Positions 45,563 through 50,917 of a DNA stretch of 50,917 bases are shown here, piece by piece. The DNA comes from Archangiaceae bacterium (GTDB lineage: Bacteria; Myxococcota; Myxococcia; Myxococcales; Myxococcaceae): NCBI GenBank assembly GCA_016879935.1, contig JAACJQ010000392.1, positions 1-50,917 of the forward strand, written 5' to 3'. The notes under the pieces were generated by a model. It had not been told where the DNA came from and searched no databases. It saw only the letters and a list, made by a program, of their open reading frames with translations. The first letter of the stretch is position 1; every line of letters starts with the position of its first letter. The position numbers and the translations under genes were made by a program.

Positions 45563-46618
45563 TCATCGAAACGATCGAACCTTCACGCGCGGCGCTGTCG
45601 GCGGCGAATTCGGCTTCGTTCGAACGGCGTCGAGCGCGGCGAGATTGGCGGCGGGGCGTCTTCGATTTCCCGGCGGCGCGCACGAGTGGAGCGCGCTCTC
45701 GAGCCCGAGCGACCCTTCGCGCCCTGGCCTGGTGGCGACGTGAAAGCCCTGACCGTCTCGCAGATCGTTCTTCTTGGGCCGCTGCAGTGACGAGAGCGAC
45801 GAGAGGCGCGGCACCTCGAGGCCGGGCACGAGCGCGGTGGCGCTGCGACGACTTCTCGAGAGGCGGGCAAGCCGGCTGCGAGGCAACACGAGCCGTTTCC
45901 CCGTCACGCCCTGCGCACGCGCGATCTCGACGTGCAGCTCGGGCTCGACCTGTGGCGCTTCGGGTAGCTCGGCGGTGACGACGCGAAGGTGCGTCGCCCT
46001 GGGCTGTTGCGCGGCGACGGGCGAGGTGCGTGAGGCCATGACGAGGCGAACGAGGCCCTGCGCTGGAGCCACGTTCGCGGTGAGCACGAGCAGCAGCGAG
46101 CCCCCTGCCCTCGCCGCGTCGAGCAGCTTCTTGGTGTCGAGCATCGTCAGCTGCACACCGGTGTGCGTGACGTCGAGCACCACGCAGGTGAAGGCGCCGC
46201 TGCGGAGCAGCTGCACTGCCGCCCACACGAGCTGGCCCGGCGCTGGAGGGCGAACGATCAACAACCGCTGCAGGTCGACGCCCATCGGCACGGCCGCCGG
46301 TGGGTAGAGCTCTTGCGGGCCATCGACCCACGCCGCGAGGCGCTTCTCACGGCACGCCGCCGCGACCAGCGACAACGCCACCGTCGTTCGGCCCGACGCC
46401 TCTTCTCCCGACAGCTCGACGGCGCCACCGAGCCGAAACACGCCGAGCGCATCGAGCTCGGGCGCGCCCGTCGCCAACGTCACCAGGTACCGCCGGGGAG
46501 CGGCCTGCACGCGGCGGATCTGCTCCTTCAGGTGCTCCACCACCGAAGCACGGCGCTGCTCGTCTCCTGAAAACCGCTCCGGAGCCGATTTACCGGCCTC
46601 TGCTGCGACGCTGACCAT
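45563..46618 (-). CDS. RecA-fold ATPase, ImuA-like, SOS-regulated
   Basis: The 351-residue protein has a RecA-like core: Walker A at 71-78 (GEEASGRT, in which the usual Lys is replaced by Arg77), Walker B-like VVLD (146-149), and RLGGAVELSG leading into the P-loop. The last ~120 residues are basic and low complexity (RSRLARLSRSRRSATA). This fits ImuA-type proteins, which act with ImuB and DnaE2 in mutagenic lesion bypass in many bacteria. No imuB or dnaE2 is adjacent; a TonB receptor gene follows. ATG 46618 has GGAGG 5 bp upstream, and a strong LexA box stands 25-41 bp before it. Confidence 0.72.
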   Translation of the reverse strand: MVSVAAEAGKSAPERFSGDEQRRASVVEHLKEQIRRVQAAPRRYLVTLATGAPELDALGVFRLGGAVELSGEEASGRTTVALSLVAAACREKRLAAWVDGPQELYPPAAVPMGVDLQRLLIVRPPAPGQLVWAAVQLLRSGAFTCVVLDVTHTGVQLTMLDTKKLLDAARAGGSLLLVLTANVAPAQGLVRLVMASRTSPVAAQQPRATHLRVVTAELPEAPQVEPELHVEIARAQGVTGKRLVLPRSRLARLSRSRRSATALVPGLEVPRLSSLSSLQRPKKNDLRDGQGFHVATRPGREGSLGLESALHSCAPPGNRRRPAANLAALDAVRTKPNSPPTAPRVKVRSFR

Positions 46619-46642
46619 GGCGACCTCCAACCGCGATCTCTT

Positions 46643-46659
46643 GCTGAACACGCATTCAG
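46643..46659 (-). promoter_or_regulatory. LexA (SOS) box upstream of the ImuA-like gene
   Basis: On the minus strand the site reads CTGAATGCGTGTTCAGC. It matches 16 of 17 positions of the Myxococcus LexA consensus as I recall it (CTRHAMRYBYGTTCAGS); only the sixth base differs. It overlaps a possible -10 (GATACT) of the minus-strand promoter, an arrangement typical of SOS repression. Confidence 0.72.
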
Positions 46660-46668
46660 TATCAAGCC

Positions 46669-46685
46669 GGGCTGACATTCAGCCC
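46669..46685. promoter_or_regulatory. 17-bp perfect palindrome next to the LexA box
   Basis: GGGCTGA and TCAGCCC flank CAT with no mismatch, nine bases from the LexA box, in the 163-bp gap between the divergent ImuA-like and cysteine-rich genes. Candidate operator for a second regulator, or a hairpin in the leader of either transcript. Confidence 0.4.
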
Positions 46686-46781: not shown

Positions 46782-48989
46782 GTGAAATCGAACTACCTCT
46801 CGTTCGCCGCGCTCGTCGGCAGTGCGCTGTTCTTCGGCTGTCCTCCGCAGCAGGGGCCGAGCGGCCAGTGTTGTGAGCCGCCGCTCCGGTACAACGCCGC
46901 GACCGACTCGTGCGAGTGCACCGCCGACGCGAGCGTGGCGGCGTGCGCGCCGGGAAGAACGTTCGACGCCACCTCATGCGCCTGCAAGTGCGCTGCGTGC
47001 CCCGCGCCGCAGGTGATCGGCAACTCCGAGACGTGCGCGTGCGTGTGCCCGAACGCGCCGAACGATCTCACCCGCGCGTGCGTCGGCTTCCCCTCGTCGT
47101 ACACGTTCAACCCGAGCACGTGTCAGTGCGAGTGCCCGGCGAAGCAGTGCACGACGCCGTTCGTCTTCAACGCTCAACGCTGCGCGTGCGAGTGCCCGAC
47201 GTGCGCCGCGCCGCAGGCGTTGATCGACCCGCTCACCTGCGCGTGTGGCTGCGTGGCGCCCGATGGTGGAGCTCGTACGTGTGGCGCCAATCAGGTGCTC
47301 GACCCCACGACCTGCAAGTGCGGCTGCGGCACCACGTGCGCGCCCGGCCAGGTGCAGGACCCGAACACCTGTGCGTGCAGCTGCCCGAACTCCGGCCCGA
47401 ACGCGTGCGCGAACTTCCCCGCTGGCTTCACGTTCAATCCCACGACCTGTCAGTGCGAGTGCACGGGCCTCACCTGCCCAACGCCGAAGGTCGCCGACCC
47501 GCAGACGTGCAGCTGCAAGTGCCCCTCGACGTGCGCGGGCTATCAGGTGCAGGACCCGAACACGTGCGCGTGCCGCTGCCCCAACCAACCGCTCGGCGGA
47601 AACGCCTGCACCGGCTACCCGGCCGGCTACACGTTCAATCCAACGACCTGTCAGTGCGAGTGCTCCGGCCTCTCCTGCGCCACGCCGAAGATCGCCGACA
47701 CGCAGACGTGCAGCTGCAAGTGCCCCTCGACGTGTGCGGGCAATCAGGTGCAGGACCCGAATACCTGCGAGTGCCGCTGCCCGAACTCCGGCCCGAACGC
47801 GTGCGCGAACTTCCCCGCTGGCTTCACGTTCAACGCGTCGACCTGTCAGTGCGAGTGCACTGGACTCACCTGCGCGACACCGAAGATCGCCGACCCCCAG
47901 ACGTGCAGCTGCAAGTGCCCTCCGACGCAGTGCGCGGGCAACCAGGTGCAGGACCCGGCGACGTGCGGCTGCCGCTGCCCGCCCTCGCAGTGCCCCGCCG
48001 GCTTCACGCAGAACCCGACGACCTGCGGCTGTGAGTGCACGGGGCTCTCGTGTCAGCAGCCGCGCGTCGCCAACCCCCAGACCTGTCGCTGCGACTGCCC
48101 CGCTGCTCAATGCCCGGCCAACCAGATTCAAGATCCGAACACGTGTGCCTGCCGCTGCTCGAACCAGCAGCCCGGCGTGAACCCGTGCGCGAACTTCCCG
48201 GCCGGCTTCGCGTTCGACCCGACGAGCTGTCAGTGCAAGTGCACCGCGCTGACCTGCGCGCCGCCGCGCGTCGCCGACGCCACCTCGTGTAGCTGCAAGT
48301 GCCCACCCGCGCAGTGCGCCGGAAACCAGGTTCAGGATCCCGCGACGTGCGGGTGTCGTTGCCCCGCGCTCCAGTGCCCGGCGGGCTTCACGCAGAACCC
48401 GACGACCTGCGGCTGTGAGTGCACGGGGCTCGCGTGTCAGCAGCCGCTCGTCGCCAACACGCAGGCCTGTCGCTGCGAGTGCCCCTCGGCGCAGTGCCCG
48501 GCGAATCAGATTCAGGATCCCACCACGTGCGCATGCCGGTGCTCGAACCAGCAGCCCGGCGTGAACCCGTGCGCGAACTACCCGCCTGGCTTCACGTTCG
48601 ACCCGACGACCTGCCAGTGCAAGTGCACCGCAGGAGCGTGCCAGCAGCCCCGCGTGCGAAACGCGCTCACCTGTTCGTGTGACTGCCCCTCGTGTCCTTC
48701 GGGGCAGGTGCTGACGAACCCGCAGACCTGTGGCTGTCAGTGCCTGCCGGTGCAGTGCGGCCCCGGGAAGAGTCAGAACCCACAGACGTGCGCGTGCGAG
48801 TGCAACCTTCCTTCTGGGCAGTGCCCGCCGCCGCGGCAGGTGAACCAGCAGACGTGCACGTGCGAATGCCCCGCGTGCCCCGGAGCGCAGGTCGCGAACC
48901 CGCAGACGTGCGCCTGTGCTTGTCCGGGGCCGGTGCTGCAGTGCCAGTTCCCGCAGACGTGGAACGCCACTCAGTGCAAGTGCCTGTGA
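46782..48989 (+). CDS. cysteine-rich lipoprotein with 31 CxCxC motifs
   Basis: The 735-residue protein starts at GTG 46782 (GGGGG upstream) with a lipobox (LFFGC, Cys20). The whole mature part is a tandem array of units built on an [ST]CxCxC core, such as NPTTCQCEC, PQTCSCKC or PNTCACRC. The cores are separated by 10-25 residues that usually hold a further Cys and often a GFTFNP or NQVQDP phrase. I count 31 CxCxC cores. The arrangement resembles the eukaryotic CXCXC repeat (PF03128) of Balbiani ring and VEGF-C-type proteins. It should form an extended, disulfide-stapled rod on the cell surface or a metal-binding scaffold. The next gene starts 8 bp downstream. Confidence 0.85.
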   Translation: MKSNYLSFAALVGSALFFGCPPQQGPSGQCCEPPLRYNAATDSCECTADASVAACAPGRTFDATSCACKCAACPAPQVIGNSETCACVCPNAPNDLTRACVGFPSSYTFNPSTCQCECPAKQCTTPFVFNAQRCACECPTCAAPQALIDPLTCACGCVAPDGGARTCGANQVLDPTTCKCGCGTTCAPGQVQDPNTCACSCPNSGPNACANFPAGFTFNPTTCQCECTGLTCPTPKVADPQTCSCKCPSTCAGYQVQDPNTCACRCPNQPLGGNACTGYPAGYTFNPTTCQCECSGLSCATPKIADTQTCSCKCPSTCAGNQVQDPNTCECRCPNSGPNACANFPAGFTFNASTCQCECTGLTCATPKIADPQTCSCKCPPTQCAGNQVQDPATCGCRCPPSQCPAGFTQNPTTCGCECTGLSCQQPRVANPQTCRCDCPAAQCPANQIQDPNTCACRCSNQQPGVNPCANFPAGFAFDPTSCQCKCTALTCAPPRVADATSCSCKCPPAQCAGNQVQDPATCGCRCPALQCPAGFTQNPTTCGCECTGLACQQPLVANTQACRCECPSAQCPANQIQDPTTCACRCSNQQPGVNPCANYPPGFTFDPTTCQCKCTAGACQQPRVRNALTCSCDCPSCPSGQVLTNPQTCGCQCLPVQCGPGKSQNPQTCACECNLPSGQCPPPRQVNQQTCTCECPACPGAQVANPQTCACACPGPVLQCQFPQTWNATQCKCL

Positions 48990-48997
48990 GGAACGAA

Positions 48998-50917
48998 ATG
49001 CTCCGCGTGGCTGGTGTCGTGGCGGTGCTGATGGGTTCGGCGGCGTTCGCGCAGACGTGTCCTCCGGGACAGTACCTGGCTGGACCCGGGTGCGCGCCGT
49101 GCAGTGCCGGTCGCTACTGCCCGGGGAACGACGTCGAGGTGAGCTGCGCGGCAGGAACGTGGAGCGCGGCCATCGGAGCCAGCTCGGCCGCTGCGTGCAT
49201 CGACTGCGCAGCGGGGACGTTCAGCGAGACCGCGGGCGCGACGTCTGCTGCGGCGTGCGTTCCGTGCGGTGCTGGCAGGTACAGCGCCGTGACGGGGCTC
49301 GGCTCGGCGGCAGGCTGCACCGAGTGCCCGGCTGGCACGTGGAGCGCGACCATCGGGGCGACGTCTGCGGCCGCGTGTTCGGCGTGCGGGCCGGGAACGT
49401 TCGGCACGGCCACTGGCGCGACCTCAGCGGCAGCGTGCACGGCGTGTCTGCCAGGAACCTTCAGCGCAGCCCTCGGAGCCTCGTCGAGTGTGACCTGCGC
49501 TGCCTGCGCGCCGGGAACGTTCAGCACCACATCGGGCGCGACTTCGGCTGCGGCGTGCACACCGTGTGGAGCAGGAACGTACGGAACGACGAGCGGCGCC
49601 AAGTCGGCGGCAGCGTGCATTCAGTGTGCTCCCGGCACCTTCAGCGCGTCGATGGGCGCGAGCTCCGCTGCGACCTGCACGCCATGTGGAGCGGGAACGT
49701 ACGGAACGACGAGCGGCGCCAACTCGGCGGCAGCGTGCATTCAGTGTGCTCCCGGCACCTTCAGCTCGGCGACCGGCGCGAGCTCCGCTGCGACCTGCAC
49801 GCCGTGTGGAGCGGGAACATACGGAACGGCGAGTGGCGCGGCCTCGGCATCGGCGTGCACCCAGTGCGCAGCGGGAACGTACAGCGCGACGAGCGGAGCC
49901 ACCTCGAGCGCCACCTGCCTCGCGTGCGGCGCCGGTCGTTTCAGCACCTCGACCGGAGCGACCTCGGCCGCGGCTTGCACGACATGCCCAGCCGGAACCT
50001 GGAGCAGCGCGCTGGGTGCAGACTCGGCGACAACCTGCACCGCGTGTGGCGCGGGAACCTGGAGTTCCACCGTTGGCGCCATCTCGATCGCGACGTGTCT
50101 TCCCTGTGGAGCGGGTACGTTCAGCCCGGCGATGGGTGCAACGTCGTCAGCAACGTGCACCGCGTGCCCTGCGGGTCGATACAGCGCCACGACAGGGGCG
50201 ACCTCGGCGACGGCGTGTCAGGCCTGTCCCGCCGGCACCCAGAACGCAACGGCCGGCGCAACGTCGAGCGCTGCATGCATGGCGTGCCCACCCGGAGCTG
50301 CTTCTGCTGCCGGAGCCACGGCGTGCTCGAGCTGTCAGGTCGGAACCTTCTCGTCCACGGCGCAGAGCCCTGACTGCACCCCGTGCGCGATCGGTACCGC
50401 GACGAACTCGGTCGGTTCGACGAGCTGCACCGCGTGCATCCCCGGCACCTCGGCCCCGATGGAGGGTCAGAACGTGTGTGCACCATGCGCTGGCGGCACG
50501 GCGTCGTTCGACGGAGGCGCCTGCCAGCCGTGCCCCGCGGGCCTCTTCTCGATGCCGGGGTCGAGTCAGTGCGTGCCGTGCCCTGCCGGAACGGCCTCGG
50601 TCGCGTCGGCGAGCGTCTGCGTGGCCTGCGCGTCGGGAACGTTCGCGCCCGACGCAGGCTCGAGCGTATGTTCCTCATGCGGAAGTTGCGACGACGACAA
50701 CTCGTGCACGAGTGATCGATGCGATGGCGTGGCGGGCTGCGTTCATGAGGCGATCGTCGGCTGCGAACGTGACGCAGGAAGCGTGGACGCGGGTGTGCTC
50801 AGCGACGCGGGTGTGCTCAGCGACGCGGGAGTGCTCAGCGACGCGGGTGTGCTCAGCGACGCGGGCGTGCTCAGCGACGCGGGGGCCACTGTCGACGCAG
50901 GGGCCACTGTCGACGCA
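48998..50917 (+). CDS. exported ephrin-receptor-like repeat protein (3' end beyond window)
   Basis: An open frame starts at ATG 48998 and remains open to the window edge (640 codons). The signal peptide ends AAFAQ at about residue 20. The mature part is about 20 tandem units of 20 residues with the pattern CxxC-x-A/P-G-T/R-W/F/Y-S-x3-GA-x-S-x-A-A, the signature of ephrin-receptor/GCC2-GCC3-like Cys-rich repeats. More divergent cysteine modules follow (about 450-590) and then an 18-bp-repeat-encoded (DAGVLS)n tail. The protein probably is secreted or surface-attached. It forms an operon with the CxCxC lipoprotein (8-bp gap). The C terminus, which could carry a sorting signal, is not visible. 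Confidence 0.85.
   Translation, partial: MLRVAGVVAVLMGSAAFAQTCPPGQYLAGPGCAPCSAGRYCPGNDVEVSCAAGTWSAAIGASSAAACIDCAAGTFSETAGATSAAACVPCGAGRYSAVTGLGSAAGCTECPAGTWSATIGATSAAACSACGPGTFGTATGATSAAACTACLPGTFSAALGASSSVTCAACAPGTFSTTSGATSAAACTPCGAGTYGTTSGAKSAAACIQCAPGTFSASMGASSAATCTPCGAGTYGTTSGANSAAACIQCAPGTFSSATGASSAATCTPCGAGTYGTASGAASASACTQCAAGTYSATSGATSSATCLACGAGRFSTSTGATSAAACTTCPAGTWSSALGADSATTCTACGAGTWSSTVGAISIATCLPCGAGTFSPAMGATSSATCTACPAGRYSATTGATSATACQACPAGTQNATAGATSSAACMACPPGAASAAGATACSSCQVGTFSSTAQSPDCTPCAIGTATNSVGSTSCTACIPGTSAPMEGQNVCAPCAGGTASFDGGACQPCPAGLFSMPGSSQCVPCPAGTASVASASVCVACASGTFAPDAGSSVCSSCGSCDDDNSCTSDRCDGVAGCVHEAIVGCERDAGSVDAGVLSDAGVLSDAGVLSDAGVLSDAGVLSDAGATVDAGATVDA
49120..50340. repeat. 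60-bp coding tandem repeat (about 20 units)
   Basis: Consecutive 60-bp units each encode one 20-residue CxxC module. Units at 49561-49680 and 49681-49800 form a nearly identical 120-bp pair, suggesting recent tandem duplication. The remaining units have diverged. Confidence 0.85.
50786..50917. repeat. 18-bp tandem repeat at the window edge
   Basis: Five units of GACGCGGGTGTGCTCAGC (50786-50875, single-base variants only in the ninth base) are followed by two units of a related form ending GCCACTGTC (50876-50911). They encode DAGVLS and DAGATV. The array continues past the window. Probable variable-number repeat. Confidence 0.9.

Follow-up and report, generated by a model that had tools for sequence, protein, structure and literature searches.

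The last gene of the window, the 50,917-bp stretch of Archangiaceae DNA analyzed here, probably encodes a surface-anchored rod stapled by disulphides that acts as a stalk or adhesin. Its product is best read as a new member of a recognisable class, the MYXO-CTERM cysteine-rich surface proteins. Judged by genome comparison, the CxCxC lipoprotein encoded just upstream is not a conserved partner of the repeat protein.

Repeat array and recovered 3' end

The window is the whole of contig C380 (50917 bp). The genes and features considered here are listed in order.

45563 to 46678, minus strand: divergent RecA-like gene, named from its sequence and conserved across the genus, which marks where the variable segment has its left edge
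46782 to 48989, plus strand: 735-aa probable lipoprotein with CxCxC repeats, from a presumed GTG start
48998 to 50917, plus strand: 5' part (640 of 688 codons) of a MYXO-CTERM-type surface protein with Ephrin_rec_like repeats
48998 to 49051, plus strand: Sec signal peptide MLRVAGVVAVLMGSAAFA, followed by Q, with a probable signal peptidase I site AFA-Q; read by eye from the sequence
49052 to 49144, plus strand: N-terminal cysteine-rich lead-in outside the 20-aa register, where model confidence is low
49145 to 50284, plus strand: 19 consecutive 20-residue Ephrin_rec_like units in exact 60-bp register
50285 to 50679, plus strand: eight irregular units of the same type, 15-17 residues each, from reading of the sequence with PF07699 and one PF00526 match
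50680 to 50775, plus strand: CGSCDDDNSCTSDRCDGVAGCVHEAIVGC cysteine motif; a similar motif precedes the tag of L130 in genome G009
50786 to 50917, plus strand: DAGVLS / DAGATV linker, an 18-bp tandem repeat in which the contig breaks
Contig C178, L031:4439-4293, minus strand: 3' continuation of the repeat gene

The open reading frame of the repeat gene starts with ATG at 48998 and is still open at the end of the window. Pfam PF07699 matches the repeat protein with 162.4 bits (E=2e-48, cut-off 23.1) over 17 stretches. In all 19 regular units, positions 1 and 18 are Cys, 4 and 11 are Gly, and 14 is Ser. Position 6 is aromatic in 18 units and position 7 is Ser in 14. The CxxC is formed by Cys 18 and Cys 1 and spans the unit boundaries. 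The ephrin-receptor-like nature of the repeats, proposed in the first-pass annotation together with the CxxC and aromatic-Ser positions, is thus borne out by the Pfam match and by the pattern within each unit. With the eight irregular units the protein has about 27 repeats with two cysteines each, though the count of 60-bp units could be wrong in a draft assembly.

Protein identity at a lag of 20 residues is 0.53, against a mean of 0.15 and a maximum of 0.23 in 2000 residue shuffles, and DNA identity is 0.59-0.67 at lags of 60, 120, 180, and 240 but below 0.40 at other lags. The array had been described as exact 60-bp DNA units. The period is exact over the 19 units but the copies have diverged, with a mean unit-to-unit identity of 62% in DNA (range 0.42-0.97) and 57% in protein. 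Only the unit pairs 8/10 and 9/11 are near-identical (97% and 92%), units 8-9 having been duplicated recently, as a block of 120 bp, with units 10-11. Where residues match, codon identity is 0.45 compared to 0.40 (sd 0.01) in shuffled codons, consistent with duplication that is mostly old and with a little recent copying.

Contig C380 breaks inside the 18-bp tandem repeat encoding DAGVLS, and its last 87 bases match the end of contig C178 exactly and no other place in the assembly. Joining the two contigs places a stop 48 codons further on and gives a 688-aa protein, although the DAG repeat count at the join could be wrong. Independent support for the join comes from the congener G133. There the genes flanking the two sides have homologues that adjoin directly, and about 40 bp separate the start of the RecA-like gene from the end of the gene homologous to the C178 phosphoesterase. 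In order, the joined protein has the Sec signal, the repeats, an Asp-Ala-Gly linker, and a C-terminal tag of GCGC, a hydrophobic helix, and an Arg-containing tail, with the C-terminal end reading PAGCGCSSDGGGLMLLALAMVAWAQRLR...

The MYXO-CTERM model TIGR03901 scored 20.8 bits on the C-terminal 62 aa, borderline against its cut-off of 20, and TIGR03382 scored 18.9 on the C-terminus (cut-off 15.85). The tag model was not reported when the full-length protein was scored; the match is on the C-terminal 62 aa. The tail of the tag (AQRLRSTSSNRST) has fewer arginines than usual. The missing 3' end, in which the first-pass annotation had suggested looking for a sorting signal or anchor, was obtained from C178 and carries a MYXO-CTERM tag, which supports the cell surface as the probable destination of the protein. 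The genome also encodes the myxosortase MrtX on contig C442 (NF040593, 342 bits, cut-off 180). MrtX and the tags point to a myxobacterial host. In M. xanthus, MrtX cleaves the MYXO-CTERM of TraA and accounts for the surface anchoring of TraA (PMC11980579).

Two further genes lie on C178 next to the 3' end. A molybdopterin-binding-domain gene (L031:3841-4332; PF00174, just under cut-off) lies tail to tail with the repeat gene, and the ends of the two overlap by about 40 bp. The phosphoesterase gene beyond it (L031:1504-3833, with a MYXO-CTERM end) is broken near a (CG)n run into two frames that overlap, and its G133 homologue is one open frame of 856 codons; the split is either a frameshift or a sequencing error.

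Distribution of the repeat gene and of its lipoprotein neighbor

PF07699 was found in 20 of 195 Myxococcota genomes, among them every one of the seven from the genus, but in none of 14 control genomes. Many of the complete relatives that were fetched end in a Cys-helix-Arg tail, with several over the MYXO-CTERM cut-off and the tails of others just under it or unscored. A paralogue in the same genome (G000:C420:612-3512, L021) codes for 966 aa and has a clear tag at 32.1 bits. Like the window gene, this paralogue and the relatives from the genus (L063, L066-L069) encode an Ephrin_rec_like array, a linker of Asp-Ala-Gly or Gly/Ser and, where the end is present, a MYXO-CTERM. Several of them differ in having an extra N-terminal domain (VDG..DWTG..) and units that are shorter and less regular, whereas the window gene lacks the domain and keeps a strict 20-residue register. 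In the C420 paralogue this domain precedes the ephrin-like repeats and has no Pfam assignment. At L074:4470-7562 (G138, C947), two ephrin-like repeat ORFs adjoin, each with a Cys-helix-Arg tail at its end. A scan of named genomes returned only one weak relative, from an alphaproteobacterial MAG (L137, 28% identity), with patterns from so variable a repeat being a poor probe. No plasmid relatives were found.

The lipoprotein encoded upstream has 132 Cys, 31 CxCxC modules, and a lipobox-like LFFG-C. PF03128 is the sole Pfam family matched in it (36.6 bits, cut-off 15, 18 stretches). Its stop codon is at 48987-48989 and leaves a gap of exactly 8 bp to the ATG of the repeat gene, so the CxCxC lipoprotein eight bases upstream was correctly placed in the first-pass annotation. 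The short gap and the purine-rich GAGGA suggest one transcript for the two genes; the lipoprotein is probably co-transcribed with the repeat gene and is probably an envelope protein too. In scans of the DNA around the pair, no promoter or terminator stood out above chance. By sequence, no solved relative of the lipoprotein was found, and no BLAST relatives (E<=1e-10) were found in the 144 other genomes of the order. Since the short PF03128 model missed even the known copy in a genome scan, the repeats of the lipoprotein itself were used to build a longer profile (A1). This profile found similar modules in a few other Myxococcota. At the four loci examined the modules form the C-terminal part of large TSP3/VWA-like proteins, and none of these loci has an ephrin-like gene adjoining. 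These proteins (L125, L126, L127, and L129) have TSP3-type repeats, matched by PF18884 in L126, and a VWA-like region ahead of the modules.

Among the 195 genomes searched in the phylum, only this one was found to have CxCxC modules beside an ephrin-like gene. In the fetched stretches around ephrin-like genes, some of which end at contig ends, there was no CxCxC gene, and the six congeners have ephrin-like repeat genes while lacking the window-type lipoprotein. The orthologous site in G133 has neither gene. The first-pass annotation had read the two genes as an undescribed two-gene surface system, naming a lack of co-conservation as evidence to the contrary, and had suggested a survey of Myxococcota; the pair is not co-conserved and, among the genomes searched, occurs in this one only, and the "two-gene system" amounts to two known types of module that lie together locally. 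As the G133 site is without the pair, the pair belongs to a presence/absence segment of about 4.9 kb that also includes the molybdopterin-domain gene, either gained here or lost in G133. At the same site (window position 46679; L119-L124), the RecA-like gene is conserved among congeners and the neighbor on that side is variable. In the remaining five congeners, no homologue of the phosphoesterase gene was found next to the RecA-like gene.

Predicted fold and similarity to known proteins

An AlphaFold model of the repeat protein was built from 14 aligned relatives. It has a mean pLDDT of 77, about 90 over residues 370-510, and a pTM of 0.42. Its confidence is good locally but low globally, as expected for a long flexible rod. 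In fold, the model best matches the mastigoneme chains of Mst1, with E=3.5e-25 by Foldseek and, by VIA-align, a Z of 13.4 over 463 residues and an rmsd of 11.7 A, in the range of 11-12 A for Mst1. They are followed by ELAPOR1 and, over about 50 residues, by Eph and calcium-sensing receptors. For the EphA4 ectodomain the match to the predicted model has a Z of 7.2 over 49 residues and an rmsd of 1.6. The sequence match to Mst1 is 2.3e-31, a score of the kind that low-complexity repeats push up.

The cysteine-rich domain of Mst1 (8tx1, 8wa2, and 9b4h) is the best solved relative in both sequence and fold. Its cysteine-rich units form a long rod with disulphides in series, as is predicted for the repeat protein, and its 678 residues make a 26-nm rod with 26 disulphides (PMC11015965). 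Scaled from these values, the ectodomain of the repeat protein may be about 20 nm long. Mst1 differs in having nine Ig-like domains and a polyproline helix and in building a filament, none of which is seen in the repeat protein; it has no Pfam match to an Ig-like domain, and its sequence ends in the DAG linker and tag. Eph receptors share the same small cysteine-rich fold over about 50 residues, in the Ephrin_rec_like domain of EphA4 and EphB2. An Eph receptor identity was rejected, with no ephrin-binding domain, FN3, kinase, or SAM among the Pfam matches up to E=10, and no signalling role is implied.

TraA of Myxococcus xanthus (MXAN_6895) and its paralogue MXAN_4924 likewise have a signal peptide, cysteine-rich tandem repeats, and a MYXO-CTERM, and the repeats of TraA have been proposed as a rigid stalk (PMC3325183). 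By analogy, the repeat protein probably works like the stalk of TraA. TraA also has a PA14 domain and TIGR04201 repeats and the repeat protein has neither: PA14 is absent among its Pfam matches up to E=10, and TIGR04201 (Myxo_Cys_RPT) has no match on C380 at E<=0.1 compared to 62 elsewhere in the genome. There is also no OmpA-domain TraB partner, the upstream neighbor having only PF03128. On these features, the repeat protein does not qualify as a TraA-type recognition receptor.

Proposed role of the repeat protein

From its sequence and model, the repeat protein would be exported by its Sec signal, and, once in the periplasm, its approximately 27 Ephrin_rec_like units would take the form of a thin rod resembling the cysteine-rich segment of Mst1. 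The Asp-Ala-Gly linker and MYXO-CTERM tag would then hold it in the inner membrane. Given that MrtX is present and the published work on TraA, MrtX may cut after the presumably lipidated cysteine. The protein could then pass to the cell surface and function there as a stalk or adhesin in contacts between cells or between cell and matrix.

A different arrangement, in which the protein is secreted and released unanchored into the matrix, is improbable. It would fit a tag score barely above cut-off and a weakly basic tail, and TraA without its tag is released (PMC11980579). Against it, two tag models score above cut-off, the GCGC motif is intact, and the tag is kept in relatives. Somewhat more plausible, but still unlikely, is that the lipoprotein and the rod are a functional pair like traAB, used for recognition or surface assembly in this lineage only. 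The two genes are on the same strand with an 8-bp gap and a purine-rich GAGGA before the ATG, both products are cysteine-rich and exported, and the surface-recognition genes traA and traB are arranged as an operon (PMC3325183). However, the six congeners with ephrin-like genes but no lipoprotein leave the pair without co-conservation, and CxCxC modules elsewhere are in TSP3/VWA-type proteins with no ephrin neighbor.

The similarity to Mst1 also raises polymerization of the rod into an extracellular filament, which we regard as very unlikely. The Mst1 cysteine-rich domain is the best match in sequence and fold, and its antiparallel dimers build the mastigoneme filament (PMC11015965). The repeat protein, however, lacks the Ig-like domains and polyproline segment, and its C-terminal anchor suggests display rather than assembly. 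The same fold is also found in the ectodomains of ELAPOR1, Eph, and TNF receptors, which are not known to form such filaments. Most speculative of all is a bacterial counterpart of the mastigoneme filament, with anchored rods joined sidewise via their cysteine-rich faces and the CxCxC lipoprotein as second strand or base; if true, such mastigoneme-like association of rods would be a type of surface fibre not known in bacteria.

An anchored rod is the reading we retain, and a surface role of the protein is likely. Ephrin_rec_like arrays have been described as having emerged in ancient eukaryotes (PMC6993872). They are a regular feature of one myxobacterial genus, present in each of its seven genomes. 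In the library searched, we found no paper on ephrin-like repeats in myxobacteria. Their occurrence in both Myxococcota and eukaryotes could stem from common descent, transfer, or convergence. In practical terms the outcome is modest: one further candidate stalk or adhesin. For the biology of the group, it would mean that myxobacteria probably use at least one further type of cysteine-rich repeat, besides that of TraA, as a MYXO-CTERM-anchored surface rod.
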